A stretch of DNA of 35,135 nucleotides from Bacillota bacterium. Its GTDB lineage: Bacteria > Bacillota > JADQBR01. This document shows, piece after piece, positions 1,846 through 29,609 of the stretch. The DNA lies in NCBI GenBank assembly GCA_016278515.1, contig JADQBR010000149.1, positions 1 to 35,135 of the forward strand, written 5' to 3'. The notes under the pieces were generated by a model. The model ran no database searches. It saw only the letters and a program-made list of their open reading frames with translations, and had not been told where the DNA came from. Every line of letters begins with the position of its first letter. Within the stretch, counting starts at the first letter, position 1. The translations under genes and the position numbers were made by a program.

Positions 1846-3660
1846 CTACTCAACCGTAACACTCTTTGCTAAATTTCTTGGCTTATCTACGTCTGAGTCG
1901 CGGGCTATGGCTGCGTAGTAGGCAAGTAGTTGGAGTGGTACCACTGAAAGAATTGGTGCCAGTAATGGTATTGTGTTGGGTATTGCTATCACTTCATCAA
2001 CTGTCTCGCTGATGTCCACACCTTCGAAGACTAATCCAGTGACGTGGGCACCTCTGGCTTTTACTTCTTTAATATTACTGATGGTTTTGTCATAAATCCT
2101 GCCTTGGGTTGCCAGTGCTACTACAGGTATACCTTCTGTAATCAATGCTAAGGTGCCGTGTTTTAACTCACCTGCTGCATAGGCTTCGGCATGAATATAA
2201 GATATTTCTTTTAGCTTCAGAGAGCCTTCCTGAGCTACTGCCCAGTCTAAGCCGCGGCCGATAAAGAAAGCATTTTCTCGCTTTGCCCATTCATGTGCTA
2301 ATCTTTCAACTTTTCCCGCTTGTTCCAGCACTGTCTCTACATGACCGGGTAATTCCCTCAAGGCCTTGGTTATTTCAGATGTCTGTTTCGGTGTCAGTAT
2401 CCCTCTTTCTTGGGCTAAGAACAGTCCAAATAAATACATTGCCGCCAATTGGGTCAGGTAAGCTTTAGTCGATGCAACTGCTATTTCTGGGCCGGCCCAG
2501 GTATAAATTACCAGGTCTGCTTCCCGGGATACGGAGCTACCCACAACGTTGGTAACAGCAAGGACCTGTGCACCCTTGTTCTGTGCCTCGCGCATGGCCG
2601 CTAGGGTATCTGCTGTCTCTCCCGATTGGCTGATTACTACTACTAATGTTTTATCATCTATTATGGGATCTCGATAACGAAATTCAGATGCGATGTCTGC
2701 CTCAGCCGGAATTCGGGCCAAATTCTCTACTACGTCTTTACCCACTAGCCCGGCATGGTAAGCTGTTCCGCACGCTACAAAGTATACCTTATTAATCTTA
2801 TCCAGTCCTTTAATATCTCTCATTTCATCCAGAGTGACAGCGCCATTATTGAGTCTTCCTTTAAATGTTGCCCTTAAGGCCCGGGGTTGTTCAAAAATTT
2901 CTTTAAGCATAAAGTGAGGGTAACCGCCCTTTTCAGCAGCTTCGGCGTCCCACGTCACTTTGAATAATTCTTTATCTATTTTTTCTCCTTTTTGATATAC
3001 CTCAACTACGTCCTTTGTAATTGTCGCCACTTCGCCGTCTTCCAAAAGAAAAACCTTACGCGTATGCTTTAAGATGGCCGGTATATCAGAGGCTAAGAAA
3101 TTCTCTCCTTCACCTAAGCCAACTACCAAGGGGCTGTCTTTTCTTACACAGACAATTCTTTCCGGTTCGTCTTTAGCAATTACCGCCATGGCATATGCCC
3201 CATCTATCAACCCGATAACATGATGCACCGTTTGCAGTAAGTCTCCTTTATAATGCTTTTCTACTAAATGCGCTAATACTTCAGTATCTGTCTCAGAGAT
3301 AAATTTATGGCCTTCCGCTATTAGTTTTTTCTTTATTTCCTGATAATTTTCGATGATACCGTTATGAACAACGGCAAAGCTTTTGGAACAATCATAATGC
3401 GGATGAGCATTTTCATGAGAAGGCTTACCATGGGTAGCCCACCTTGTATGCCCGATCCCCACTTTTCCTGTTAAATCTTGTGCCTCTAATGCGGAAACTA
3501 GTTCCGCTAGTCTACCTTTTCTTTTAATGATTTCTATCTGGTGGTCCTCTAGTATTGCAATACCTGCAGAATCATAACCTCTATACTCCAATTTAGAAAG
3601 GCCCTCCACCATAAGCGGTGCCGCCGGTTTAGGCCCAATATATCCTACAATGCCACACAT
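1846..3660 (-). CDS. glmS: Glutamine-fructose-6-phosphate aminotransferase (isomerizing)
   Basis: Converts fructose-6-phosphate and glutamine to glucosamine-6-phosphate, the entry step to UDP-GlcNAc and peptidoglycan. The protein starts MCGIVGYIG, with the nucleophilic Cys2 exposed after Met removal. The glutaminase domain covers about residues 1-220 (TRWATHG, HNGIIENY), followed by two SIS sugar-isomerase domains (ISQSGETADT), and it ends with the conserved KSVTVE tail. About 604 residues is the normal length. The ATG at 3660 is chosen over the one at 3669 because the latter sits only 2 bases after GGAG, whereas 3660 has 11 bases and yields the invariant N-terminus. It lies downstream of glmM on the same strand, and the leader contains a glmS ribozyme, so product feedback at the mRNA level is expected. 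Confidence 0.98.
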   Translation of the reverse strand: MCGIVGYIGPKPAAPLMVEGLSKLEYRGYDSAGIAILEDHQIEIIKRKGRLAELVSALEAQDLTGKVGIGHTRWATHGKPSHENAHPHYDCSKSFAVVHNGIIENYQEIKKKLIAEGHKFISETDTEVLAHLVEKHYKGDLLQTVHHVIGLIDGAYAMAVIAKDEPERIVCVRKDSPLVVGLGEGENFLASDIPAILKHTRKVFLLEDGEVATITKDVVEVYQKGEKIDKELFKVTWDAEAAEKGGYPHFMLKEIFEQPRALRATFKGRLNNGAVTLDEMRDIKGLDKINKVYFVACGTAYHAGLVGKDVVENLARIPAEADIASEFRYRDPIIDDKTLVVVISQSGETADTLAAMREAQNKGAQVLAVTNVVGSSVSREADLVIYTWAGPEIAVASTKAYLTQLAAMYLFGLFLAQERGILTPKQTSEITKALRELPGHVETVLEQAGKVERLAHEWAKRENAFFIGRGLDWAVAQEGSLKLKEISYIHAEAYAAGELKHGTLALITEGIPVVALATQGRIYDKTISNIKEVKARGAHVTGLVFEGVDISETVDEVIAIPNTIPLLAPILSVVPLQLLAYYAAIARDSDVDKPRNLAKSVTVE

Positions 3661-3689
3661 GTTAGTCATCGCTCCTTCAAAAACACGTT

Positions 3690-3828
3690 ACCAATCAAAA
3701 CACCCTTTGTCCCCGAAGTTACTTCCGGGTTTTGTGGTGTTTGTAACGACCAGGTTTAGCCGGGAGGTACCCGCCGAATATTTCGATACACCTCCACCTC
3801 GTCAACCGCAAGATGCGGTTCAGGCGCT
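3690..3828 (-). promoter_or_regulatory. glmS ribozyme/riboswitch (glucosamine-6-phosphate responsive)
   Basis: Reading the minus strand, the core hallmarks appear in order: AGCGCC at the cleavage site, GTTGACGAGG followed by GGAGG and ATCGA, TTCGGCGG, CCTCCCGGC, and near the 3' end CGGGGACAAAGGG. This matches the glmS self-cleaving RNA. The cleavage should fall between A at 3828 and G at 3827. The 3' end is approximate. In known cases glucosamine-6-phosphate acts as the cofactor, and the cleaved mRNA is degraded. The ribozyme ends some 30 bases before the glmS start. A minus-strand 66-codon reading frame over this region (3756-3956) is an artefact of it. Confidence 0.95.
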
Positions 3829-3871
3829 TTTTTCACCAAAGACAACAAGCCATATTCACTTGTCATTATCT

Positions 3872-11654: not shown

Positions 11655-13256
11655 TTACTTTACTTGTTCCAGTTTTTCCAATCCCTGTTTTTTCTCGTGA
11701 GCCAATAGTGCATAATCCATACTGTCTAACAACGCCTGCCAACTTGCTTCGATAATATTTTGGGAAACTCCTACCGTATTCCAGGAATTTTCTTTATTTT
11801 GAGATTCAATGAGCACCCGCACCTTAGCACCGGTACCATCCTTTTCATCCAGCACACGTACTTTATAGTCGCTTAAGTGCATGTCTTTTATCACCGGATA
11901 AATTTCTTCCAAAGCCTTTCTAATGGCATTATCCAACGCATTAACAGGCCCATTGCCTTCTGCAGCAGTATGCACTACCTGATCTTCCACCCTTATCTTT
12001 ATGATTGCCTCGGACAATGATTCTTGATTCTTTCTTTTTTCCACAAGAATTTTAAATGATTCAAGTTGGAAATGCTCCCGGTACTCTTTAAGGGCCTTCT
12101 TAATCTGAAGTTCTAAAGATGCTTCGGCCCCTTCAAATTGGTATCCCTTATGTTCCAGATGCTTTATTGTACTTATCAATTCCTTTGACTGATCCTTATC
12201 TTTTAGCATTTCAGTTATATTAAGCTCTTCGGCTTTATATCTGAGATTACTGGCTCCGCTTAACTCTGAAACCAATACTCGCCTTTTGTTGCCAACTTTT
12301 TCCGGTTCAATATGTTCATATGTACTGGGGTCCTTTAAAACCGCACTAACGTGAATCCCGCCCTTATGGGCAAAGGAACTTTTACCGACGAAAGCTTGGT
12401 TATTGGGCACCCTATTGTTTGCTACTTCGCTAATGTAAAGAGAAATTTCGGTTAATCTTTCCAGATGTCCTTTCGATAAACAATCATATCCTAATTTTAG
12501 CTCCAAATTAGGAATGATAGAGCACAGATTGGCATTGCCGCAGCGTTCACCCAGACCGTTAATTGTCCCATGAACCATGATGGCTCCAGCGTTTACCGCA
12601 GCTATGCTATTGGCAACCGCCAGTTCACCGTCATTATGAGCATGAATTCCAATGGGGACTGACAGTTTGCTCTGAACCTGATTAATCATCGAAACGATCT
12701 CCTCGGGCAGGCACCCCCCGTTAGTATCGCAGAGGGTTATCCAATCCGCCCCACCTTCTACTGCAGCTTCAAGCGTATCCATGGCATATTTTTTGTCTTG
12801 CTTGTATCCGTCAAAAAAATGTTCTGCGTCATAAACTACTTCCAACCCGCTGCTTTTAAAATATTCAACCGTCTCTCTGATCATAGCAATATTCTCTTCC
12901 AATGTTGTCTCTAGCGCTCTGTAAACGTGTAAATCCCAACTCTTTCCGAAAACAGCAACCGCATCAACTTTGGCATCCATTACCGCTTTCAGATTAGCAT
13001 CTTCTTGCACTGACAGGTGTGGACGGCGAGTACTTGTAAAGGCAGTCAGTTTGGCATGGCACAAGGGATACCTCTTAGCCTGCCTAAAAAACTCCAAATC
13101 CTTTGGATTGGATCCGGGCCAACCGCCTTCCACATAATCGACGCCTAAATAATCTAATTTTTGGGCAATTTTTAATTTATCCTGGACACTTAAGCTGATG
13201 CCTTCACCTTGAGATCCATCCCTAAGAGTAGTGTCAAAGATATATACTTTGCTCAT
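11655..13256 (-). CDS. cimA: Citramalate synthase
   Basis: Condenses pyruvate with acetyl-CoA to (R)-citramalate, opening the threonine-independent route to 2-oxobutyrate and isoleucine. The catalytic TIM barrel begins [15 protein letters not shown] and contains the VEGGWPGSNPKD signature that separates this citramalate group from 2-isopropylmalate synthases; metal ligands are in GIHAHNDGELAVANS. The C-terminal ~130 residues are a LeuA-type regulatory domain, presumably for isoleucine feedback. The length of 533 residues is typical. It lies 38 bp after leuB. LeuCD and LeuB, encoded just upstream, can also process citramalate, so clustering makes biochemical sense. The assignment relies on remembered motifs. 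Confidence 0.92.
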   Translation of the reverse strand: MSKVYIFDTTLRDGSQGEGISLSVQDKLKIAQKLDYLGVDYVEGGWPGSNPKDLEFFRQAKRYPLCHAKLTAFTSTRRPHLSVQEDANLKAVMDAKVDAVAVFGKSWDLHVYRALETTLEENIAMIRETVEYFKSSGLEVVYDAEHFFDGYKQDKKYAMDTLEAAVEGGADWITLCDTNGGCLPEEIVSMINQVQSKLSVPIGIHAHNDGELAVANSIAAVNAGAIMVHGTINGLGERCGNANLCSIIPNLELKLGYDCLSKGHLERLTEISLYISEVANNRVPNNQAFVGKSSFAHKGGIHVSAVLKDPSTYEHIEPEKVGNKRRVLVSELSGASNLRYKAEELNITEMLKDKDQSKELISTIKHLEHKGYQFEGAEASLELQIKKALKEYREHFQLESFKILVEKRKNQESLSEAIIKIRVEDQVVHTAAEGNGPVNALDNAIRKALEEIYPVIKDMHLSDYKVRVLDEKDGTGAKVRVLIESQNKENSWNTVGVSQNIIEASWQALLDSMDYALLAHEKKQGLEKLEQVK

Positions 13257-13294: not shown

Positions 13295-14383
13295 TTATAA
13301 TCTTTCTCTAATCAATGCACCCATCTCAACAGTACCCACCTGCCGACAGCCGGGTGACATAATATCACCTGTGCGATAGCCTGCTTCCAGCACATCACCT
13401 ACTGCCTTACGAATGGACTGAGCCGCATCAGGTAAGTCAAAAGTTATTTCCAGCATCATTGCTACTGAAAGAATAGTTGCTATGGGGTTTGCCAAATCTT
13501 TACCGGCAATATCCGGAGCGGACCCGTGGGACGGCTCATACAGTGCTACTTCCCCGCCAACACTAGCTGAAGGAAGCATGCCTATGGAACCACTCAGCAT
13601 GGATGCCTGGTCGCTAAGAATATCGCCAAAAGTATTTTCTGTCACAATAACGTCAAATTGTTTTGGGTTACGGACCAGCTGCATAGCGCAATTATCTACG
13701 TAGATATGTTCCAGATTAATTTCCGGGTATTCTTCTATCATTTTATCCGCAGTTTCCCGCCATAAACGAGAGCTTTCCAATACGTTGGCCTTATCAACCG
13801 ACGTCACTTTCCCTGACCGTTTTTTGGCCAAATCAAAGGCCAATGCCAAGATGCGCTTTATCTCCGGCGTAGTGTAGACTAAGGTATCTATCGCCCTTTC
13901 CGCACTTTCGGTTTTATCACCGGAAGAAAAAGTATAGGTTTCTCGTGACTTTTTACCAAAGTAAAGGCCGCCTGTTAACTCACGAATAACTACTAAATCG
14001 GTTCCTTCAACTACTTCTTTCTTCAAGGTGGATGAGTCTGCTAAAGCAGAGTATAAAAGGCATGGTCTGATATTGGCGTAGAGTCCCAAACCTTTTCTTA
14101 AAGGTAGTAAGGCCGCTACTTCCGGGCGCTCGCTAGCAGGCAGGGTATCCCATTTAGGCCCGCCCACAGCACCTAAAAGCACTGCATCGCTGGCACGGGA
14201 AGCCTCTAAGGTTTCTTCGGGCAGTGATTTACCTACTTTATCGATAGCGGCGCCGCCTATCAAACCTTCTTGAAATTCCAATTCTAGGCCATATTTAGGG
14301 GCTACTTTCTCCAATACTTTAACTGCCTCCGGTACAATTTCCGGACCGATACCATCCCCGGGCAACACCAAGATTTTAGGCAC
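13295..14383 (-). CDS. leuB: 3-isopropylmalate dehydrogenase
   Basis: Oxidises and decarboxylates 3-isopropylmalate (and probably 3-methylmalate) with NAD. It opens with [13 protein letters not shown], and has the substrate loop [10 protein letters not shown], the metal-binding aspartates in [16 protein letters not shown], and the NAD loop [12 protein letters not shown]. The start is set at a GTG (14383) overlapping the end of leuD by 8 bases (GTGCCTAA). AAGGAGG lies 9 bases upstream, and the product then starts MPKILVLPG as in homologues. A longer frame from 14407 would run against the leuD tail and has no conserved residues. It has 362 residues. Confidence 0.97.
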
Positions 14384-14876
14384 GTTGCTTCGCCTCCTTG
14401 GCAACATATTTCATAAGTCCACCTGCATCAATAAGTTTCTGCATAAACTCAGGGAATGGAACCGCTTGGTATTCCTTGCCCGTAGTTAAATTGACTATTT
14501 TTCCTGAGTCTGCATCTACTTTTACCTTATCACCCTCTGCGATATCTTTAGCCGCTTCTTCGCATTCGAAAATGGGTAATCCTATGTTGATGGCATTGCG
14601 GTAAAAAATGCGGGCAAATGAAAATGCAATGACACATGACAACCCAGCTGCCTTAATGGCAATTGGCGCATGTTCCCGAGAGCTGCCGCAACCGAAGTTC
14701 TTTCCGGCCACAATGATATCACCGGTTTTAACCTTGTCATAAAAAGTCTCATCCGCATCTTCCATACAGTGTTTTGCCAGTTCTGCCGGTTCGGATGTGT
14801 TTAAATATCGCGCCGGAATAATAGCATCAGTATCCACGTCACTGCCAAATTTCCATGTCCTACCTGTAAATTCCAT
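14376..14876 (-). CDS. leuD: 3-isopropylmalate dehydratase small subunit
   Basis: The small swivelling subunit of isopropylmalate isomerase. [18 protein letters not shown] and [14 protein letters not shown] are the hallmark sequences. At 166 residues it is the short form usual in Clostridia and archaea, not the ~200-residue enterobacterial type. The ATG follows the leuC stop directly (TAAATG), with the ribosome site GGAGGTG inside leuC, so the subunits are translationally coupled. Confidence 0.97.
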
Positions 14877-16139
14877 TTACAGCACCTCCTCAGGACTAGC
14901 TATTCTGCCGAGTACCGCACTTGCAGCAGCTACCGCCGGCCCACTTAAATATACTTCACTTTCAGGGTGGCCCATCCGCCCGACAAAGTTTCTATTGGTT
15001 GTGCTGACGCACCGCTCACCTTTGGCTAAGATACCCATGTACCCGCCTAAACAAGGTCCGCAAGTTGGTGTGCTTACGACTGCTTCGGCTTCAATGAAAA
15101 TATCCACAAGGCCTTCCGTCATAGCTTGGCGGTAGATTTCTTGAGTACCGGGAATAACTATGGCACGGATTTCGTTATGAACCTTATGGCCTTTAAGTAG
15201 TTTTGCAGCTACTCTTAAATCCTCTATCCGGCCATTAGTGCATGAACCGATCACTACTTGGTCAATAGTTATATTCCCTACTTCACTAATAGGACGAGTA
15301 TTCTCCGGTAAATGCGGGAATGAAACAACCGGTTCCAGTTCACTAACGTCATATTCAATCACTTTAGCATACTTGGCATCGGGATCACTTGCAAGAACCT
15401 GGTAATCTCTTTTAGCGCGTTTCTTAACATAATCTAATGTTTTATGGTCAGGCGCAATGATGCCGTTTTTACCACCAGCCTCGATGGCCATATTAGCCAT
15501 GGTGAGTCTGCCTTCGACTGATAAATCATCAATGGCTTCACCTGTAAATTCCATAGCCATATAACGGGCACCGTCCACCCCAATGTCTCCAATTGTGTGG
15601 AGAATTAAGTCCTTACCGCCCACCCATGGCTTTAATTTGCCGTGATAGACAAACTTAATAGTCTCAGGCACCTTAAACCAAGCCTCACCGGTAGCCATAG
15701 CAGCAGCCATGTCGGTACTGCCTACTCCGGTTGCAAAGGCACCTAACGCCCCATAAGTACAGGTATGGGAGTCAGCGCCGATAATAAGATCGCCAGGTAA
15801 TACCAGACCCGCTTCAGGTAATAAGCAGTGTTCAATTCCCATCCTACCTACTTCAAAGTAGTTAACTATACCGTGTTTCTTAGCAAACGTTCGCATAGCC
15901 AATGCCTGTTCCGCAGACTGAATATCCTTATTAGGAATAAAATGGTCAGGCACTAAAACTACTCGTTTTTTATCAAATACTTGATCCATTCCCAGTTTCT
16001 CAAATTCCCTAATTGCAACCGGTGCCGTGATATCGTTACCCAGCACCACGTCCAACTTGGCATTAATCAACTGTCCCGGCTCCACATTATCCAATCCGGC
16101 ATGGCGGGCAAGGATTTTTTCGGTTATAGTCATCCCCAT
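14877..16139 (-). CDS. leuC: 3-isopropylmalate dehydratase large subunit
   Basis: Aconitase-family [4Fe-4S] enzyme that isomerises 2- to 3-isopropylmalate together with LeuD, and probably citramalate to 3-methylmalate. The three cluster cysteines are in place: C300 in GSCTNGR, and C360 and C363 in TCGPCLGG. Other conserved stretches are [11 protein letters not shown] and [21 protein letters not shown]-type substrate loops. At 420 residues it is the shorter form matched to the short LeuD. Two in-frame ATG codons (16139 and 16133) compete; the first has GAGGGGGAG about 8 bases upstream and is chosen. It lies 16 bp after leuA. Confidence 0.97.
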
Positions 16140-16155
16140 AAACTTTACTCCCCCT

Positions 16156-17688
16156 CTACTTTACTTTCTGCAGCTCATTTTCTTCTTCATATACCAGCTT
16201 ATTTATAGCGTTAATATAGGCCTTGGCACTGGCTTCTATAATATCGGTACTGATGCCGCGCCCGATAAACACCCGATCCCCATACTTAACTTTTGCCGTT
16301 ACTTCACCGATGGCATCGGTGCCGCCGGTAATGGCATTGAGGTTATAATACAGTAAGTTCACTTGCAAATTTGTCACTTTATCAATTGCTTTAAAAGCTG
16401 CATCCACTGAACCTTCGCCCAGCGCAGCTTCCTCCCGCAGTTCGCCGTCGATAACTATGCCTACCGTTGCCGTAGGCACAGTACGGTTGCCTGAGAAAAC
16501 ATGCAGATGCTCCAGATGAAATTTTTCGGGAATTCTGCGGATTTCTGCCTCGACTATTGCCTCAATATCTCGATCAGTTATTTCTTTTTTACTATCAGCC
16601 ATATCTTTGAAACGTCTAAAAGCCTTATCCGCTTCTTCTTGTTCAAGTTCAAAGCCTAACTCTAACAAACGTTGACGAAAGGCGTGCCGTCCTGAATGTT
16701 TTCCCAGTACTAGGTTGTTTTGAATCAGACCAATCATTTCAGGATTCATGATTTCATAGGTGGTGCGTTCCTTTAAGACACCATCTTGGTGAATTCCTGA
16801 CTCATGGGCAAAGGCATTTTTACCTACTATTGCCTTGTTTGGTTGAATGCTCATACCCGTTAAGCGGCTTACCAGTTTACTGGTTCGATAAATCTCTTTG
16901 GTGTTGATGTCGGTATAGTAATCAAAATAGTCCTTGCGGGTATGAAGTGCCATGACAACTTCTTCAATGGCCGTATTCCCCGCTCTTTCACCTATCCCGT
17001 TTACTGCACCCTCAACTTGCTGCGCACCATTTGCCACTGCTGCCAAAGAGTTAGCCACTGCCAGGCCGAGATCATTATGGCAATGCACACTTAAAATGGC
17101 TTTATTTATGTTTGGCACCCTGCTGCGAATATCAGCAATAAATTTCCCGAACTCCCCCGGCGTAGCATAACCCACTGTATCCGGGATATTGATAGTGGTA
17201 GCACCTGCGTCTATGGCTGCCTCCACTATCTGACAAATGAAACCCAAGTCGCTCCTAAAACCATCTTCTGGTGAAAATTCCACGTCTTCAGTATATTGTT
17301 TTGCATGCTTTACGCCTTTAATGGTTTGCTCCAATACTTCCTCCGGGGATAGTCTTAATTTATATTTCATATGAATATCCGAGGTAGCAATGAAAATGTG
17401 AATACGTGGTTTTTCAGCGTATTTTACCGCTTCCCAGGCTCTATCAATGTCCACCGGAGAGATCCTTGCCAGTCCTGTAATAGTCGGTCCCTTTACGTTT
17501 TCTGCAATTAACTTAACGGCCTGAAAATCACCTTCAGATGCAATGGGAAAACCAGCTTCAATGATATCTACCCCCATCCGTGCCAGTTGGATAGCTATCT
17601 CCAATTTTTCCTTAGCGTTGAGACTTACTCCGGGGGATTGCTCTCCATCCCTCAGAGTGGTGTCAAAAATATAAACGCGTTTACTCAT
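16156..17688 (-). CDS. leuA: 2-isopropylmalate synthase
   Basis: Joins 2-oxoisovalerate with acetyl-CoA, the committed leucine step. The barrel begins [18 protein letters not shown], with metal ligands in the [19 protein letters not shown] loop and [12 protein letters not shown]. The C-terminal ~140 residues form the allosteric leucine-binding domain. The start at 17688 is supported by GGAGGAG 7 bases upstream; this site overlaps the end of ilvB at 17693. The frame could be extended to 17790, but this would overlap ilvB and lack homology. The 510-residue product has normal length. Confidence 0.97.
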
Positions 17689-17692
17689 AATT

Positions 17693-19378
17693 TCACTCCT
17701 CCCCATATGGGAATTCAACCATTTCATCCAAACCTCTCGCATTGGGAACCATGGGAAGAACCAATTCTTCCTCACTGATCTTAACCTCAATGATGGTCAG
17801 CTTGCCATTATTCAATGCCTCTTTCAGTACCGGTTCCACCTGCTCAGGTGTTTCTATTTTTAGGCCTACCGCATTATAGCATTCAGCGAATTTTGCAAAA
17901 TCCGGGTTACCGGTAAAGTTGACAGCCGTATAGCGTTTATCACAATAAAAATGCTGGAGTTGACGTACTAACGCCAAGCAGTTGTTGTTAAACAGCATTA
18001 TTTTAATCGGTAAGTCTTGTTCCACCGCCGTGCCCATTTCCTGCATAGCCATTTGGAAACTGCCATCTCCCGTCACGGCCACTACTAATGCATCACGATC
18101 AGCCATCTGAGCACCAATAGCTGCGGGGAAACCATAGCCCATTGTTCCCAGACCGCCGGAAGTCAAAAAGCCCCGGGGCCGTTCGAAGGCATAGTACTGC
18201 GCTGCCCACATTTGATGCTGGCCTACGTCGGAGGTAACTAAGGCATTATGATTAGTAAGCTCGCCCAACTTCTCCATAACATATTGAGGGCGCAGTTTTC
18301 CCCCTTGGCCGTATTGCAAAGGATGTTCTGCCTTCCACCGTCTGATTTGTTCCAGCCACTCAGAGTGTTCCTGGGGCTCAAGTTTACTTATTAAATCAAT
18401 CAATACTAGCCGCAGGTCACCTACTATAGGTACATCTACCCCCACATTCTTGCCAATCTCCGCAGGGTCGATGTCAATGTGAATTATCTTGGCCTGAGGG
18501 GCAAACTTTTCTATTGCACCGGTTACCCGGTCATCAAAGCGAACTCCCAGGCCTATTAACAGATCTGCTTGAGTAACTGCATAGTTAGCAAAAGGAGTCC
18601 CGTGCAGGCCCAGCATTCTCAATGATAATTTATGGTTTTCGGGAAAACTACCTAAACCCATTAATGTGGTAGTTACAGGAATCTGTGCCTTCTCTGCAAA
18701 TTCCAGTAACTGTTCCGTTGCCCTTGAATTGATGACCCCGCCACCCACATAAATTACAGGCTTTTGGGATTGATTAATCATTTTCAGCGCCCGTTCAATC
18801 TGCTGGGGATGGCCTTTATAGTTGGGCTTATAACCCCTCAGTTCAACCTTATCTGAGGGCTCGGCAATGCAAATATCTGATGCGACATCCTTTGGGATAT
18901 CAACCAAAACCGGACCCGGCCTGCCGGAACGGGCAATGTGAAATGCCTCTTTCATGATTCTGGGGATATCTTTTGTTTCTTTAACCAAATAGTTATGCTT
19001 GGTAATCGGTATGGTAATACCCGTAATATCAACTTCCTGAAAAGCATCAGTACCCACCATACTGGTGGCCACCTGGCCAGTAATAATTACTACAGGTACG
19101 GAATCCATGTAAGCTGTCGCAATACCCGTTACCAAATTGGTAGCACCAGGCCCAGAAGTAGCCATACATACACCCACTTGCCCGGAAGTACGAGCGTAGC
19201 CGTTTGCCATGTGAACGGAGCCCTGTTCGTGTCTTACTAACACATGTTCTATCTCTGAATCCAACAGTGCATCATAAATAGGTAATACCGCACCACCTGG
19301 ATAACCAAATACCTGTTTCACGCCTTCTGCTTCTAATATTTTAACTAAAGCTTGCGCTCCTGTTATTGTTGATGCCAA
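17693..19378 (-). CDS. ilvB: Acetolactate synthase large subunit, second copy
   Basis: Thiamine-diphosphate enzyme making 2-acetolactate or 2-aceto-2-hydroxybutyrate. The catalytic glutamate is in [16 protein letters not shown], the FAD/ThDP loops include [12 protein letters not shown], and the cofactor motif is [12 protein letters not shown] followed by NNN. Translation probably starts with TTG at 19378, because GAGGAGGTG lies 7 bases before it and the first residues [14 protein letters not shown] align with other subunits. It is 561 residues long. It is one of two large subunits flanking a single regulatory subunit; the two differ along their whole length, so this is an old duplication rather than a recent one. 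Confidence 0.96.
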
Positions 19379-19407
19379 TCAATTCACCTCCTCAACGAAA
19401 TTACTAA

Positions 19408-19905
19408 CTATTCATTGTGCCGATTTTTTGCCCCGCGTACCAATGCAACTTTGCCTGTCCTAACCAATTCTTTGATACCGAAAGGCTTTAAAGATGTTTC
19501 TATGGCACTAACCTTGCCGCCGTCTCCGGTAGCTTCGATAATTACCGTATTTCTTCCCATATCTACGATGCGGGCCCTAAAAATATCCACAATCTGAATT
19601 ATTTCCGCACGATTTGAGGAATCACAACAAACTTTAATCATTATCAATTCTCTATCTACAAACTCATCTTGTGTAATGTCGTTTAGCTTAATTACGTCAA
19701 CCAATTTGTTTAGCTGCTTGGTAACCTGTTCTATAATTCTCTCGTCTTCTCCATCTACAACTATAGTCATGCGGGAAACTTCCGGGTCTTCCGTCTCTCC
19801 TACCGCCAGGCTGTTTATATTAAAACCCCTGCGGGCAAAGAGCCCGGCGATGCGTGTTAGTACACCAGGCCTGTTTTCAACTAATACCGATAATGTATGC
19901 TTCAT
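19408..19905 (-). CDS. ilvN: Acetolactate synthase small (regulatory) subunit
   Basis: An N-terminal ACT domain ([26 protein letters not shown], residues about 4-30) binds valine and confers feedback inhibition; a C-terminal domain follows, with the conserved GKVALVRG near the end. At 165 residues it has the usual short-form length. The ATG overlaps the ilvB stop upstream by one base (TAATG), with GGGAGGT as ribosome site inside that gene. It sits between two large-subunit genes and could serve either. Confidence 0.97.
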
Positions 19906-21590
19906 TAATCGCTACCTCCCAGCATCTTATTTAGCGAACCTCCGGGTGGTACCATGGGAAAGACATTCTCTTCCTCTTCCACCACAAAATCCAATACAAA
20001 AGGTTTCGGCGATTTAATCGCCTGCTCGATGGCCGATCTTACATCTTCAGGTCTTTCCACCCGCAGACCTTCCGCCCCATAAGCCTGGGCAAGCTTCACA
20101 AAGTCCGGATTACCCTCCAATCTTGTATGGGAGTACCGTTTATCTAAGAATAAATCCTGCCACTGTCGTACCATGCCCAGAAAGTTATTATTTAAGATTG
20201 CAATGTTTACGGGTAGTTGATAATGCACCGCCGTAGCCAATTCTTGGGAATTCATTTGAATACTCCCGTCACCAGCAATGTCAAAGACTATTGATTCGGG
20301 GTAAGCCATCTGTACACCAAGTGCGGCCGGAAAACCATAACCCATGGTGCCTAGACCGCCGGATGACATGAATTGCCTCGGGTATTTACATTTATAATAC
20401 TGGGCCGCCCACATTTGATGCTGGCCGGTTTCAGTCGTGACAAATGCCTCTCCGTTTGTTGCCTTATATATTTCTTCAATTACAAACTGTGGTTTAATCA
20501 CGTCCGTCGTGGTGCAGTATTTTAATGGGTACTCCCGCCGCCACTGATAGACAGTATCCAGCCAAGGCTTGTGTTGTTTCGCGGTTACTTGTTTGAGTAA
20601 GCTAGTCAGTATTTTTCGCACGTCACCCACCAGCGGAATATCAATTTGTACGTTTTTGCCCACCTCGGCCGGATCGATATCAATATGAACAACCTTAGCG
20701 TTTGGTGCAAAGGCATCAATTCTACCCGTAACCCGGTCGTCAAAACGCACTCCCAAGCCAATTAGCAAATCACATTCGGATAATGAGTAGTTAGCGTAAC
20801 TAGTGCCGTGCATTCCAGGCATACCGAGGGCCAATGGATGGTCATCGGGAAAGGCACCTTTTCCCATCATGGTAGTTGTTACCGGTGCATTAATCCTTTC
20901 TGCAAACTCCAATAATTCCGCATGGGCTCTCGATGCTTTGATCCCCCCGCCGGCATATATCAGCGGCTTTTCAGCCTTCTTTATTGCCTCAACAACCTGG
21001 GTAAGTTTAGCGGTAACACCATTATAGATATATTTATAGCCCGGCAAATCAAACTCCGGCGGATAGACGAACTCTGTTGACGAAACAGCTACATCTTTCG
21101 GTATATCTACCAAAACCGGACCCGGCCTGCCTGTAGAAGCAATATGAAAGGCCTCATGTATTACCCTTGCCAAATCCCGAACATCCTTTACCAGATAACT
21201 GTACTTGGTAATAGGCTGGGTAATACCTGTGATATCTGCTTCCTGGAAAGAATCCTTTCCGATCATATTGCAGGCAACCTGTCCTGTTATGGCTACCATC
21301 GGAACGGAGTCCATATATGCTGTGGCAATGCCGGTAACTAAATTTGTAGCACCCGGACCGGAAGTAGCCAATACTACACCTGGCTTATCAGTAGCTCTCG
21401 CATATCCATCTGCAGCGTGGGCCGCCCCCTGTTCGTGCCGGGTCAATACATGTTTAATTTGTTTCTCGTTATAAAGAGCATCATAAATATGCAGTACTTG
21501 ACCACCGGGGTAGCCAAAAATAACCTCTACCCCTTCTTCTTTCAACGCTCTTATTAATATTTCAGCACCTGTCAATGTTTTCGCTTTCAT
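19905..21590 (-). CDS. ilvB: Acetolactate synthase large subunit, first copy
   Basis: Same enzyme class as the copy at 17693: catalytic glutamate in [32 protein letters not shown], and the ThDP motif [12 protein letters not shown] followed by NNN. The start is uncertain. An ATG at 21620 overlaps the ilvD stop (ATGA) but has no good ribosome site and adds ten unconserved residues; the ATG at 21590 begins [15 protein letters not shown] as in homologues, with GGGG 5 bases upstream. This copy is directly coupled to ilvN and is therefore the likelier partner of the regulatory subunit. Confidence 0.96.
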
Positions 21591-21616
21591 TGAATCCCCA
21601 ACTTTCCTCACCTCCG

Positions 21617-23278
21617 TCATTTTTTTAAAACTGCTCCTGTATATGCAGAAGTCACTTGTTTTGCGTAACGTGCCATATATCCCTTTGTAATCTTAGGCTC
21701 CGGCGCTTTCCATTCTGCACGTCTCTTTTCTAGTTCAGCGTCATCTACCAACAATTCCAATTTATTATTTGGAATATCTATGGAAATAGTATCCCCTTCT
21801 TTAACCAAAGCAATGATACCGCCCTCAGCGGCCTCAGGTGAAATGTGTCCGATGGAAGCCCCTCTGCTGGCTCCGGAAAAACGTCCATCCGTAATTAAAG
21901 CAACTTTTTCATCAAGGCCCATGCCTGCAACGGCGGCGGTTGGGGAAAGCATTTCCCGCATTCCCGGACTGCCTTTAGGCCCCTCGTAACGAATAACAAT
22001 TACGTCACCAGGCTGGATTTTTTTACCTAAGATTGCTTCAATAGCATCTTCCTCAACCTCGAATACTCGAGCAGGCCCTTGATGAACCAACATTTTCTCA
22101 CTTACAGCGGCCTTTTTGACTACAGCGCCTTTAGCGGCAAGGTTACCCCAAAGAATAGCTAGACCACCTTTAGCGTTGTATGCAGTTTCTTTCGATCTAA
22201 TTACATCGCTATCTTTAACAGCGGCCTTCTCTAGATTCTCCTCAACGGTTTTGCAAGTAATAGTTTTACAGTCTGCATGAATTAATCCTAAATCATTTAA
22301 CTGCTTCATTACCGCGGAAATTCCACCGGCCTGATCCAGATCCTCCAGATGGTGTTCCCCGGCCGGGCTTAATTTACATAAGTGCGGTGTTTTTTCACTG
22401 ATTGCATTTATCTTTTCTAAATCAATCTTAATACCCGCCTCGTGGGCAATAGCTGGCAAATGTAATACTGTATTGGTGGAGCAGCCCATAGCCATATCCA
22501 CTATTAATGCGTTCTCAAAAGTGCTCTCAGTCAATATGTCCAATGGCTTTAGATCCTGCTTGAGCACCTCCATCACTTTCATGCCCGCCTGCTTGGCAAG
22601 GCGTTTACGACCAGCGTGAACACTGGGAATAGTGCCGTTACCAGGCAAACCTAATCCTAATGCCTCGGTTAAACAGTTCATGGAATTAGCAGTAAACATG
22701 CCTGCACAAGACCCACAACCAGGGCAGCAATTATCTTCTATTTCTTCCAAACGCTCATCATCAATTTTTCCCGATTCATAAGCACCAACTGCTTCAAATG
22801 CAGTGTTAATATCCATGATCTGATTGTTCAGTTTACCAGCCAGCATTGGCCCGCCGCTGACAAAAACGGAAGGCACATTAAGCCTAGCAGCAGCCATTAA
22901 CATTCCCGGCACTACCTTATCGCAGTTAGGTATAAGTACCAGTGCATCAAAAGCATGGGCTTCGGTCATAATCTCAATAGAATCTGCAATTAGTTCCCGG
23001 CTTGCCAGTGAATACTTCATTCCTTTATGACCCATAGCTAATCCGTCACAAACCGCAATCGCAGGGAATTCCAATGGTGTACCACCAGCCATACGCACCC
23101 CGGCTTTAACGGCTTCAGCAATTTCTCTTAAATGAATATGTCCCGGTACCACTTCATTGAAAGAGTTTACTATTCCTATTAACGGTCTTTCTATCTCTTC
23201 CTTTGTAAGGCCGTTGGCCTTCAATAATGACCTGTGTGGTGCCCTGCCAATACCTTTTTTCATGCGATCACTATTCAA
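21617..23278 (-). CDS. ilvD: Dihydroxy-acid dehydratase
   Basis: Fe-S enzyme that dehydrates 2,3-dihydroxy acids to the keto acids before valine and isoleucine. Iron-sulfur and metal residues are in AVCDGL, PNCDK (C119) and [18 protein letters not shown]-type sequence (C191). The C-terminal [19 protein letters not shown] is characteristic. The start is TTG at 23278, with AAAGGAG 9 bases upstream; an ATG five codons later is too far from that site. It has 553 residues. It is the second gene of the operon, 82 bp after ilvE. Confidence 0.97.
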
Positions 23279-23360: not shown

Positions 23361-24239
23361 TTACTTATTGATCTTTGGTCCGTCAACTTTAGTCAATTCT
23401 CTATAGTCAGCAGTAAGTTCTTTGGTCATTGACCCAGGTTCGCCATTTGCTATGGTTCTGCCATCCACCTTCACAACTGGAACCACTTCTGATGCAGTAC
23501 CAGTTAAGAAAACCTCATCCGCAATAAAAATATCGTGTCTGGTAAACACTTTTTCCAGCACCGGAATACCGCGCTTTTCTGCCAATTCCATAACCGTATT
23601 ACGTGTAATTCCTTCTAAAATACCCACATGAATTGGTGGAGTAATCAGCATGCCTTCTTTTACGATAAAGATGTTGTCTGCCGTAGCCTCTGCTACATAA
23701 CCTTCATTATTTAACATAATGGCTTCCGGTGAATTGGACAGATGAGCTTCCATTTTCGCAAAAATGTTATTTAAATAATTAAGAGATTTAATTCTTGGAT
23801 TTAATGCTTCTGCTACGTTTCTTCTAGTAGGAACCGTAACAACTGCCATGCCTTTTTCATAAAGCTCTTCTGAGTAAAGGCGGATTCCTGCGGCAATACA
23901 GAATACAGTAGTTCTAGGACATTTTTTCGGATCCAACCCTAGATCGCCTTTCCCGCGAGTAACAACAAGACGAATATAGCCGTCCTGCAAATCATTTCTA
24001 CGTAATGTTTCCAATACAACTTCCGTCATTTCCTCAGGGGATAAGTCTATCTTTAATTGCAAGGTTTGGGCTGATTCATATAGCCTTTTAATGTGCTCCT
24101 TCAATTTAAATACCCTACCGTGGTAAGCACGTATGCCTTCAAAAATTCCATCGCCATATAGTAACCCGTGATCAAAAACTGAAACCTTAGCCTCTTCTTC
24201 CATTACGAATTGACCGTCAAAGTAAATAGTTAATCCCAT
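23361..24239 (-). CDS. ilvE: Branched-chain amino acid aminotransferase
   Basis: PLP fold-type IV transaminase that finishes valine, leucine and isoleucine synthesis. The N-terminal block FDHGLLYGDGIFEGIRAY is characteristic, the PLP lysine is K151 in NPRIKSLNYLNN, and EATADNIF and LTGTASEVVPV complete the cofactor site. D-amino acid transaminases share the fold, but the GIFEGIRAY and TGTASEV forms and the operon context favour IlvE. It has 292 residues. The ribosome site is AGGGGGA. It is the first gene after a long regulatory leader. Confidence 0.95.
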   Translation of the reverse strand: MGLTIYFDGQFVMEEEAKVSVFDHGLLYGDGIFEGIRAYHGRVFKLKEHIKRLYESAQTLQLKIDLSPEEMTEVVLETLRRNDLQDGYIRLVVTRGKGDLGLDPKKCPRTTVFCIAAGIRLYSEELYEKGMAVVTVPTRRNVAEALNPRIKSLNYLNNIFAKMEAHLSNSPEAIMLNNEGYVAEATADNIFIVKEGMLITPPIHVGILEGITRNTVMELAEKRGIPVLEKVFTRHDIFIADEVFLTGTASEVVPVVKVDGRTIANGEPGSMTKELTADYRELTKVDGPKINK

Positions 24240-24265
24240 TTTTAAAACTTTCCCCCTTTTGTAAT

Positions 24266-24290
24266 CCGGGACTTAATCCATAACTCCCGG
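24266..24290 (-). promoter_or_regulatory. Hairpin just upstream of the ilvE ribosome site
   Basis: CCGGGA and TCCCGG pair around a 13-base loop, ending 9 bases before the ilvE Shine-Dalgarno sequence. It lacks a T run, so it is not a terminator; it could protect or position the mRNA end. Confidence 0.35.
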
Positions 24291-24333
24291 TAAAATGTAA
24301 AAATCATTGAATGAAAAGAGATATTTAGATATT

Positions 24334-24400
24334 AAAAAGAGACTCCTAGATAAATTCCTCTGATACTCCCCGTGATACAGAGTGGAACCTATCCGCTGAG
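24334..24400 (-). terminator. Terminator following the ykkC-class riboswitch
   Basis: On the minus strand GACTC pairs with GAGTC and, inside this, GGATAGGTTCC pairs fully (with G-U pairs) with GGAATTTATCT; an inner ACTC/GAGT hairpin caps it. The stem is followed by TCTTTTTAAT. It starts directly after the aptamer, as expected for an expression platform acting on transcription. Confidence 0.75.
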
Positions 24401-24510
24401 TCTTTTATCCCCACGGTGTAACACCCGAACTAAGGATGTCTGTACCGCTCGGTCCAGTCCACCGCCAAATAAAACGGCGCGGAACCCTAGGTACACTTCC
24501 CTCTTTTTGA
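24401..24510 (-). promoter_or_regulatory. ykkC-class riboswitch, probably subtype 2a (ppGpp)
   Basis: Minus-strand sequence contains the two conserved ykkC blocks in order: GTACCTAGGGTTCCG (about 24497-24483), then GGACTGGACCGAGCGGTAC about 20 bases later, followed by an ACAGACAT segment and a GGTGTTACACC hairpin. ykkC RNAs sense guanidine, ppGpp or PRPP depending on subtype. Variants that bind ppGpp are known upstream of branched-chain amino acid genes in Clostridia, so ppGpp is the likely ligand here. A terminator lies immediately downstream and would be prevented when the ligand is bound. Subtype assignment rests on context, not on diagnostic nucleotides. Confidence 0.82.
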
Positions 24511-24546
24511 AAATTTTCTGCACTAGTATAACTAAATTAAGACATT

Positions 24547-24583
24547 AAAAAAGCCCTCCACTCCCATATAATGGGGCGAGAGG
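24547..24583 (-). terminator. T-box terminator
   Basis: After the T-box motif, the minus strand has a GC-rich hairpin (CCTCTCGCCCCAT ... ATGGGAGTGGAGGG) followed by CTTTTTTAATG. This is the standard attenuator position, competing with the antiterminator that includes the T-box sequence. Confidence 0.85.
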
Positions 24584-24842
24584 ACCCGCGGTACCACCCA
24601 AATTCGCTGCAAAAATGATTTGCAGCCTCTTAGTGCCTAAAAACACTGGACGCTATAACGGGCGTGCGCCTGTCCGGCAACCACCTATTCATGTAATAAT
24701 CAACCTCTTATTGCACTTTGGGTGGTGCAGCTTGGAAGGGATATTGCACAATTAGTTTATCGTCGGGTTTCCACCATTCCCCAACTCTCTATAGACAGGG
24801 ACCTACCGGCAACTTGTCTTCCGCATCGCGTTTCCTTCTGTT
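24584..24842 (-). promoter_or_regulatory. T-box leader (tRNA-sensing), probably isoleucine or another branched-chain tRNA
   Basis: The T-box sequence TGGGTGGTACCGCGG is exact at 24600-24586 on the minus strand. Upstream, stem I begins near 24840; its base pairs GGAAG with CTTCC and UUGC with GCAA, leaving the specifier loop as UAUCC next to 24743-24739. An AGAGAG segment and a GGTG-containing apical loop are also present. The codon could be AUC (Ile, 24742-24740), which fits the operon; the register is uncertain and UAU is a formal alternative. Uncharged tRNA would favour antitermination and expression of the ilv-leu genes. It comes first in the leader, before the ykkC riboswitch. Confidence 0.93.
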
Positions 24843-24855
24843 TATTTTAAACCTT

Positions 24856-24884
24856 AGTATACCCAAGGTTTCACAAGGTGTCAA
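24856..24884 (-). promoter_or_regulatory. Sigma-A promoter of the ilv-leu operon
   Basis: TTGACA (24884-24879), a 17-base spacer and TATACT (24861-24856) on the minus strand: a near-perfect vegetative promoter. Transcription would begin a few bases before T-box stem I and run through both riboregulators. Confidence 0.9.
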
Positions 24885-24980
24885 GAATTTTTAGACAAAA
24901 ATAAAAAATACTTTTTACCAAAAATTAGGTTTCATTATTTTTAAGCGTCCTTTATCTTTTCTTAAAACAAAAATACTTAA

Positions 24981-25011
24981 GTACATATTGATGATTTACT
25001 CTGGAATACTA
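24981..25011 (+). promoter_or_regulatory. Possible sporulation-type promoter for the small-gene operon
   Basis: GTACATA at 24981 and AATACTA at 25005 are separated by 17 bases. They loosely resemble -35/-10 elements of the sigma-E/F/G/K group, and the spacing to the ribosome site at 25028 is short and sensible. There is no good sigma-A alternative. Matches are partial, so this is a hint only. Confidence 0.3.
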
Positions 25012-25044
25012 AACAATAAGTAAACCTAAAAGGAGGTTTTTAGA

Positions 25045-25191
25045 TTGTCTTTAAATGGATACGAATACGCATCACTCTCGCATAATGATGTGGATGAAGT
25101 TCAAAACTTAGAAGAAGCTCTAAATTCAAGTTTAGAAGAAACAAACCCTAATGAGGAAGTTGTGCTAATCGCGTTCAAAAAGAACAAATAG
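25045..25191 (+). CDS. Small acidic hypothetical protein (48 residues)
   Basis: A short frame starting with TTG at 25045, 8 bases after a near-perfect AAAGGAGG, and ending TAG at 25191. The product starts MSLNGYEYASLSHNDVDEV and is acidic in the middle (several Glu/Asp), ending in a basic KKNK. It has no signal peptide or membrane segment. No family is recognised. The next gene starts within 15 bases and also begins TTG-Ser-Leu-Asn, so the two are probably cotranscribed and perhaps related at the N-terminus. The strong ribosome site and the operon position are the main reasons to accept it. Confidence 0.7.
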   Translation: MSLNGYEYASLSHNDVDEVQNLEEALNSSLEETNPNEEVVLIAFKKNK

Positions 25192-29199: not shown

Positions 29200-29370
29200 G
29201 AGTTATGCCTAAACTTCGTTAGGCGAGGCTCCTGTATGGAAATAGGCTTCTGCCCAAAAATGTCGAGAGACGCCAATGGGTACAACAGGTATTGCCGGAT
29301 TAAGGCTCTACCTAAGGTAGCTGGGATACAACCCTACGCCATACAGTGCCGAAGCTAAACAAGTGAAGTG
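29200..29370 (+). promoter_or_regulatory. M-box (ykoK) magnesium riboswitch
   Basis: The characteristic blocks are all present: CTTCGTTAGGCGAGGCTCC, then TGTATGG, CTGCCCAAAAATGTCGAGA, GACGCCAATGGGTACAACAG, CTGGGATACAACC and ACGCCATACAGTGCCGAAGC. The RNA folds compactly when Mg2+ is plentiful. AACAAGTGAA at 29358-29367 is exactly complementary to TTCACTTGTT at 29416-29425 and forms the antiterminator, excluding the terminator. High Mg2+ ties up the first strand in the aptamer, so transcription stops; low Mg2+ allows mgtE expression. Confidence 0.96.
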
Positions 29371-29411
29371 TGTTTTTTGGTGCATATATGTTTTTATAAT
29401 GCTATCGGAAT

Positions 29412-29468: not shown

Positions 29469-29609
29469 ATGGAATCTGACGACGATTATTTAAAAAAGGC
29501 ATACTCAGTAAAAATAACCTTATCCATTTTTATCGACAGTTGTTGGGAAAGGAGCGAGAAAGATGACCGCAGAAATCATCAACATTTTTCGCAAGGCAAT
29601 AGAAAATAA
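29469..29609 (+). CDS. Short upstream ORF overlapping mgtE, possible Mg2+-sensing leader peptide
   Basis: An ATG at 29469 is preceded by an excellent ribosome site (GGGAGGTGG, spacing 5). The 46-residue product begins MESDDDYLKK, an acidic run early in translation, and ends 47 bases inside mgtE in another frame. The mgtE ribosome site lies within this ORF. In E. coli the MgtL leader starts with acidic and proline residues that destabilise the ribosome at low Mg2+. The position here, between an M-box and a Mg2+ transporter, suggests a comparable second layer of control, but only the sequence layout supports it. A frame extended upstream to 29421 lies on the terminator and is discounted. Confidence 0.5.
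   Translation: MESDDDYLKKAYSVKITLSIFIDSCWERSEKDDRRNHQHFSQGNRK

Follow-up and report, generated by a model that had tools for sequence, protein, structure and literature searches.

What controls the ilv-leu operon in a stretch of 35,135 nucleotides from a Bacillota bacterium (contig JADQBR010000149.1, called the window below), and could two RNA switches in its leader act together as a gate? An earlier note on this DNA had placed at 24334-24884 a consensus promoter, a T-box with its terminator, and a ykkC-class aptamer, probably for ppGpp, with a second terminator before ilvE. This span has proved exact, its limits being the last base of the second U-run and the first base of the -35 box, and the order promoter, T-box, terminator, ykkC aptamer, terminator, ilvE holds, with all elements on the minus strand. 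We have found in the window both RNA folds, the specifier codon, the residues that mark the ligand class, and computed structures that exclude each other. The locus is very probably a two-stage transcription attenuator, whose ligand binding, antitermination and AND logic we infer. The leader features are as follows.

24856..24884, minus strand: sigma-70-type promoter, TTGACA-17 nt-TATACT (11/12 consensus)
24569..24835, minus strand: T-box leader with stem I, AGAGAG motif, specifier loop, F-box CCGUUA and antiterminator (RF00230, 94.9 bits)
24740..24742, minus strand: specifier codon AUC (Ile), followed after a one-nucleotide spacer by the CUUC strand of lower stem I (position in the Rfam alignment)
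24593..24596, minus strand: UGGU of the T-box bulge, sequence GGGUGGUACCGCGGG (aligned to the Rfam model)
24551..24587, minus strand: T-box terminator hairpin followed by UUUUUU, with strands in common with the antiterminator (fold -21.3 kcal/mol)
24380..24503, minus strand: ykkC aptamer assigned to the ppGpp type (subtype 2a) from covariance models, folding and residues, with P0 helix GAGGGAA/UUCCACUC
24340..24403, minus strand: second terminator hairpin followed by CUUUUU, whose 5' arm AGACUC..GGAUAGGUUCC doubles as the 3' portion of the aptamer (fold -23.3 kcal/mol)
24334..24338, minus strand: U-run of the second terminator (read from the sequence)

The promoter upstream of the T-box is near-consensus, and a promoter match is weak evidence alone, as about 1.9 matches at 9/12 or better are obtained from shuffles of the region. 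The consensus scan found no other minus-strand promoter of at least 9/12 within 24200-25050, hence none between the two switches.

Downstream, profile matches have identified the operon as ilvE-ilvD-ilvB-ilvN-ilvB-leuACDB-cimA, in agreement with the ilv-leu operon originally proposed.

23361..24239, minus strand: ilvE, branched-chain aminotransferase, the first gene, start at 24239 (NF006185, 479 bits; TIGR01122, 343.5 bits; both above cut-off)
21617..23278, minus strand: ilvD (TIGR00110)
19905..21620, minus strand: ilvB, first acetolactate synthase large subunit (TIGR00118)
19408..19905, minus strand: ilvN (TIGR00119)
17693..19378, minus strand: second ilvB, 54% identical to the first (TIGR00118)
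13295..17790, minus strand: leuA, leuC, leuD and leuB (TIGR00973, TIGR02083, TIGR02084, TIGR00169)
11655..13256, minus strand: cimA, citramalate synthase (TIGR00977, 770 bits, cut-off 450)

The genes from ilvE to cimA follow each other with little or nothing between them, and their order is constant across three genera of the family (leuD is not separately listed for one of these). The two genes for the acetolactate synthase large subunit flank a single small-subunit gene (17693-21620), an arrangement that is also kept in the three genera. The ilvC gene is located on another contig and lacks a T-box/ykkC leader; no Rfam match at cut-off was found around it. The genome further encodes one Rel-type RelA_SpoT protein and two CodY-type proteins.

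Which amino acid does the T-box sense? The covariance-model scan of the whole window bears out the T-box itself: RF00230 covers 24835-24569 over model positions 1-219, i.e., completely, at 94.9 bits (E 8e-20), just exceeding the curated cut-off of 93 bits. For the specifier, we have taken from the Rfam alignment the three bases ahead of the one-base spacer that leads into the strand of lower stem I. This rule gave the expected amino acid at nine other T-boxes of the same genome, namely AUC before ileS, UCC before serA, GUC before valS, UUC before a DAHP synthase gene, UGC before cysE, UUC before pheS, GCC before alaS, AUG before metS and ACC before thrS, the downstream genes being named by eye from their protein sequences. 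A tenth T-box, ahead of an Lrp-type regulator, reads GCC and carries no clear expectation. As the rule works on the control T-boxes, the T-box of the window, with its specifier AUC, is read as an isoleucine sensor. That is, the branched-chain tRNA left open in the earlier note, which named tRNA-Ile for an assay, is specified as isoleucine.

The specifier also matches the regulated pathway, standing ahead of the ilv genes and cimA. Together with leuCD, leuB and the ilv genes, cimA provides isoleucine from pyruvate by the citramalate route, which is independent of threonine. From this pathway knowledge, the citramalate route would explain an isoleucine sensor over leu genes.

The second unit is hidden from a default Rfam scan, because its 57.1 bits with RF00442 (Guanidine-I) fall short of the gathering cut-off of 63 bits. 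The match, at 24501-24391 with an E value of 1.9e-9, came from a permissive search of a 721-base stretch. Scores around or below the cut-off are typical of subtype-2 aptamers, and the ilvE-linked relatives reach 53 to 68 bits. We have also built a model (R1) from five ilvE-linked tandem aptamers, which gave 117.6 bits for the ilvE copy of the window vs 69.3 bits for the purE-linked copy of the same genome; as the window's own sequence is among the five, some of its high score follows from the way the model was made, while the gap between the classes does not. In a sample of the phylum, eight places in genomes with ilvE-linked tandems scored at least 105 with this model, and the next best scored 89. 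Overall, a ykkC-class aptamer is present as claimed.

Covariation among relatives supports the fold. Folded alone, the aptamer forms P0, P1, P2 and P3, and the ykkC core, the P0 helix and the extended 5' and 3' conservation are all found in the window. Among 27 distinct tandem relatives, standard pairs fill 96.9% of the pair cells, and 11 of 39 pairs have changed on both sides, in an alignment that was fitted to the structure model. None of 500 shuffles reached as high, and slid controls were at most 48.4% paired. The double changes sit in helices 1, 4 and 5; helices 2, 3 and 6 barely vary and are little informative.

Two positions distinguish the ligand classes of such aptamers (PMC6031431). 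Position 49 is A in guanidine-I (the equivalent A46) and a pyrimidine in the PRPP and ppGpp aptamers. Position 96, where the latter two mainly differ, is G in over 97% of PRPP aptamers and absent or A, C or U in ppGpp aptamers. In the window, position 49 is C (GACCGAGCGG), i.e., a subtype-2 pyrimidine. Between the P3 strand CUC and CGG there is only the linker AG, and position 96 is absent, a call that for this two-nucleotide linker rests on alignment with relatives keeping an A. PRPP aptamers have a three-letter linker with a middle G, whereas relatives with three letters read AAG or GAG. We have further counted position 96 in 25 distinct aptamers that are preceded by a T-box and followed by ilvE: it is A in 18, absent in 7 and G in none. 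Among 71 purE-linked aptamers, it is G in 70 of the 70 that could be scored, with one unscored. The residues thus fit the ppGpp class, neither guanidine nor PRPP, as the earlier note had supposed from the operon. Membership of the window aptamer in the ppGpp class (ykkC subtype 2a) is supported, and ppGpp is its predicted ligand.

A guanidine-I riboswitch as the second unit would turn the tandem into a sensor of isoleucine shortage and guanidine, as proposed in a 2025 survey (PMC12452182), whose authors list these genes as preceded by T-box/guanidine tandems and speculate on a role of guanidine (Table 2, Fig. 7). This reading draws on RF00442 being the Rfam family that matches the window aptamer and on the T-box/Guanidine name that the survey gives to tandems before such operons. 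We regard it as extremely improbable. The match lies under the family cut-off; the conserved A46 is replaced by C in the window and in 24 of the 25 distinct ilvE-linked aptamers, the other being unscored; the window aptamer has the P0 extension; and ykkC RNAs before branched-chain genes fail to bind guanidine in published tests (PMC7266159). PRPP as the ligand (subtype 2b) is more delicate, since the scaffold with P0 is closely similar and the discrimination comes down mainly to position 96 (PMC6031431). In the window copy, the marker G is missing from this position under the preferred alignment, and one alternative placement, which leaves the position short of full certainty, would put a G there. 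Nevertheless, PRPP is highly unlikely: relatives with a three-nucleotide linker carry A at 96 and never G, the purE-linked copies carry G, the gene context of the window is branched-chain synthesis, and the PRPP-type copy of this genome is found before purE, adjoining a guanine aptamer. Both readings of the window aptamer were rejected on residues 49 and 96, and we return to the ppGpp class below.

The purE-linked copy thus serves as a built-in control, an internal contrast to the ilvE aptamer in the same genome (CCCAGACGGG vs CUCAGCGGA for the window). Upstream of purE, a PRPP-type ykkC aptamer comes immediately after a guanine aptamer (G000:C67:3295-3493; L002 1414-1610), so the genome carries two different two-input RNA gates. 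The guanine/PRPP tandem is known as an IMPLY gate (PMC5912903) and likewise has a ykkC subtype 2 aptamer as its second element; it differs from the ilvE tandem in the ligand-discriminating base and in that its two aptamers use one terminator jointly.

How could the two units control transcription? Both proposed terminators are present, as hairpins at 24587-24551 and 24403-24340 with a U-run after each. At the T-box, the computed terminator and antiterminator are mutually exclusive (the antiterminator alone folds at -9.8 kcal/mol). At the aptamer, once the downstream arm is included, the terminator captures the 3' strands of P3 and P0, with -58.4 kcal/mol vs -53.8 kcal/mol when P0 is enforced. 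The same aptamer strand serves as the 5' arm of the terminator in the relatives that we folded.

Based on these structures, RNA polymerase would start from the promoter at 24884-24856 and make the T-box RNA first. Uncharged tRNA-Ile(GAU) would read the AUC specifier, and its 3' end ACCA would pair with the UGGU bulge, as is known for T-boxes, so that formation of the antiterminator lets the polymerase pass the first terminator. The ppGpp-class ykkC aptamer would be transcribed next, and bound ppGpp would keep the helices P0 and P3 together, which would leave their 3' strands unavailable as the 5' arm of the second terminator. With this terminator blocked, transcription would proceed into ilvE-D-B-N-B-leuACDB-cimA. 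As the two checkpoints are in series, full expression is predicted only when isoleucine is short and the stringent-response alarmone is present. This would be a natural two-input RNA gate, with AND logic predicted, that combines the tRNA of one amino acid with a global starvation alarm.

On the other hand, both RNAs may be real without forming an AND gate in the cell, either as the two signals rise together or as an undetected internal start bypasses the T-box. Uncharged tRNA activates ppGpp synthesis, and the two inputs may therefore rarely differ in the cell. In addition, a TATACT is present in the gap between the switches, at about 24530-24525. Even so, no minus-strand promoter of at least 9/12, and hence no candidate for such a bypass at this threshold, was found in this gap between the T-box and the ykkC aptamer. 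Moreover, each unit has its own terminator, which is kept in the tandems folded or scored, with the exception of one genus in which the second hairpin lacks a clear U-run. We consider the absence of an AND gate unlikely.

The tandem is not confined to the window. A T-box and a ppGpp-type aptamer precede ilvE in all three genomes examined of its family and class; as the class is represented by only these three genomes, searches of the lineage at order and class level gave no additional cases. Desulfotomaculum copahuensis (L020) has the tandem too, as do many genomes from the order to which G342 belongs. We have read the specifier in 29 tandems of the order T-box to ppGpp (27 by script, L269 by eye and L230 from the alignment), and it is AUC (Ile) in 29/29, with the order fixed; since some records have identical leaders, the independent tandems are fewer than 29. 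A Leu or Val specifier for these ilvE tandems was ruled out, as AUC is read throughout. Two related ilvE leaders (L018 2657-2914 and L019 977-1196) have a T-box and no ykkC match, which makes the ppGpp unit a module that is gained or lost. In L231 and L232, from the same genus, the ppGpp aptamer is followed by a much longer hairpin that has no clear U-run; the switch may work differently there or stop elsewhere. Subtype-2 ykkC aptamers with odd letters around position 96 were also met in L233 (G064:C33), L189, L171, L185 and L252, and no ilv or purE gene match was found downstream of these five.

Tandems of a T box and a ppGpp aptamer are already in the literature as predicted AND gates, with either unit in first place (PMC9481103, PMC5912903), which agrees with the caution in the earlier note that the locus may be a further example rather than wholly new. 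Table 2 of PMC9481103 counts 16 cases of T box-Leu/ppGpp in the order of the window and 15 in reverse. Like the window, this tandem (PMC9481103; PMC5912903, Fig. 6C) places a T-box ahead of a ppGpp aptamer, gives each its own expression platform and lies upstream of branched-chain genes. It differs in its label, as the tRNA-Leu specificity is not found in the window, where the specifier is AUC (Ile), nor in any of the 29 tandems of the same order (Leu specifier, 0/29). The ppGpp element alone can be compared with the ilvE riboswitch of Desulfitobacterium hafniense (ykkC subtype 2a), which acts through termination and serves as an in vivo reporter of (p)ppGpp (PMC12373219, citing Sherlock 2018); gene, class and terminator control are as in the window, where a T-box precedes the aptamer.

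New here are only the Ile specifier, its fit with a citramalate-route operon, and what follows for the T-box/guanidine reading of such tandems in the survey. T-box-to-ppGpp tandems before ilvE, tabulated as leucine sensors, likely sense isoleucine instead; with cimA and the shared leuCDB genes in the operon, the citramalate route to isoleucine may be what the gate is tuned to, and the ligand class would correct the T-box/guanidine reading of 2025. Judged from the residues counted here, the tandems so named in PMC12452182 probably carry ppGpp riboswitches that were picked up with the Guanidine-I family. This Rfam family hides ppGpp and PRPP riboswitches, which is probably behind the guanidine interpretation in print. 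With constant order and Ile specifier in 29 tandems, the AND prediction can be tested with one tRNA and one nucleotide.

The ilv-leu leader of Bacillus subtilis is under T-box control with the specifier CUC (Leu) and without a riboswitch. It shares with the window a T-box on a branched-chain operon, and the window differs by its Ile specifier and the added riboswitch.

Elsewhere in the window, two further regulatory RNAs of ordinary kind were observed. An M-box magnesium riboswitch (29208-29374, plus strand, 159 bits) lies ahead of mgtE at 29563, and a glmS ribozyme (3688-3839, minus strand, 101 bits) lies ahead of an open reading frame at 1846-3669 that reads as glmS.
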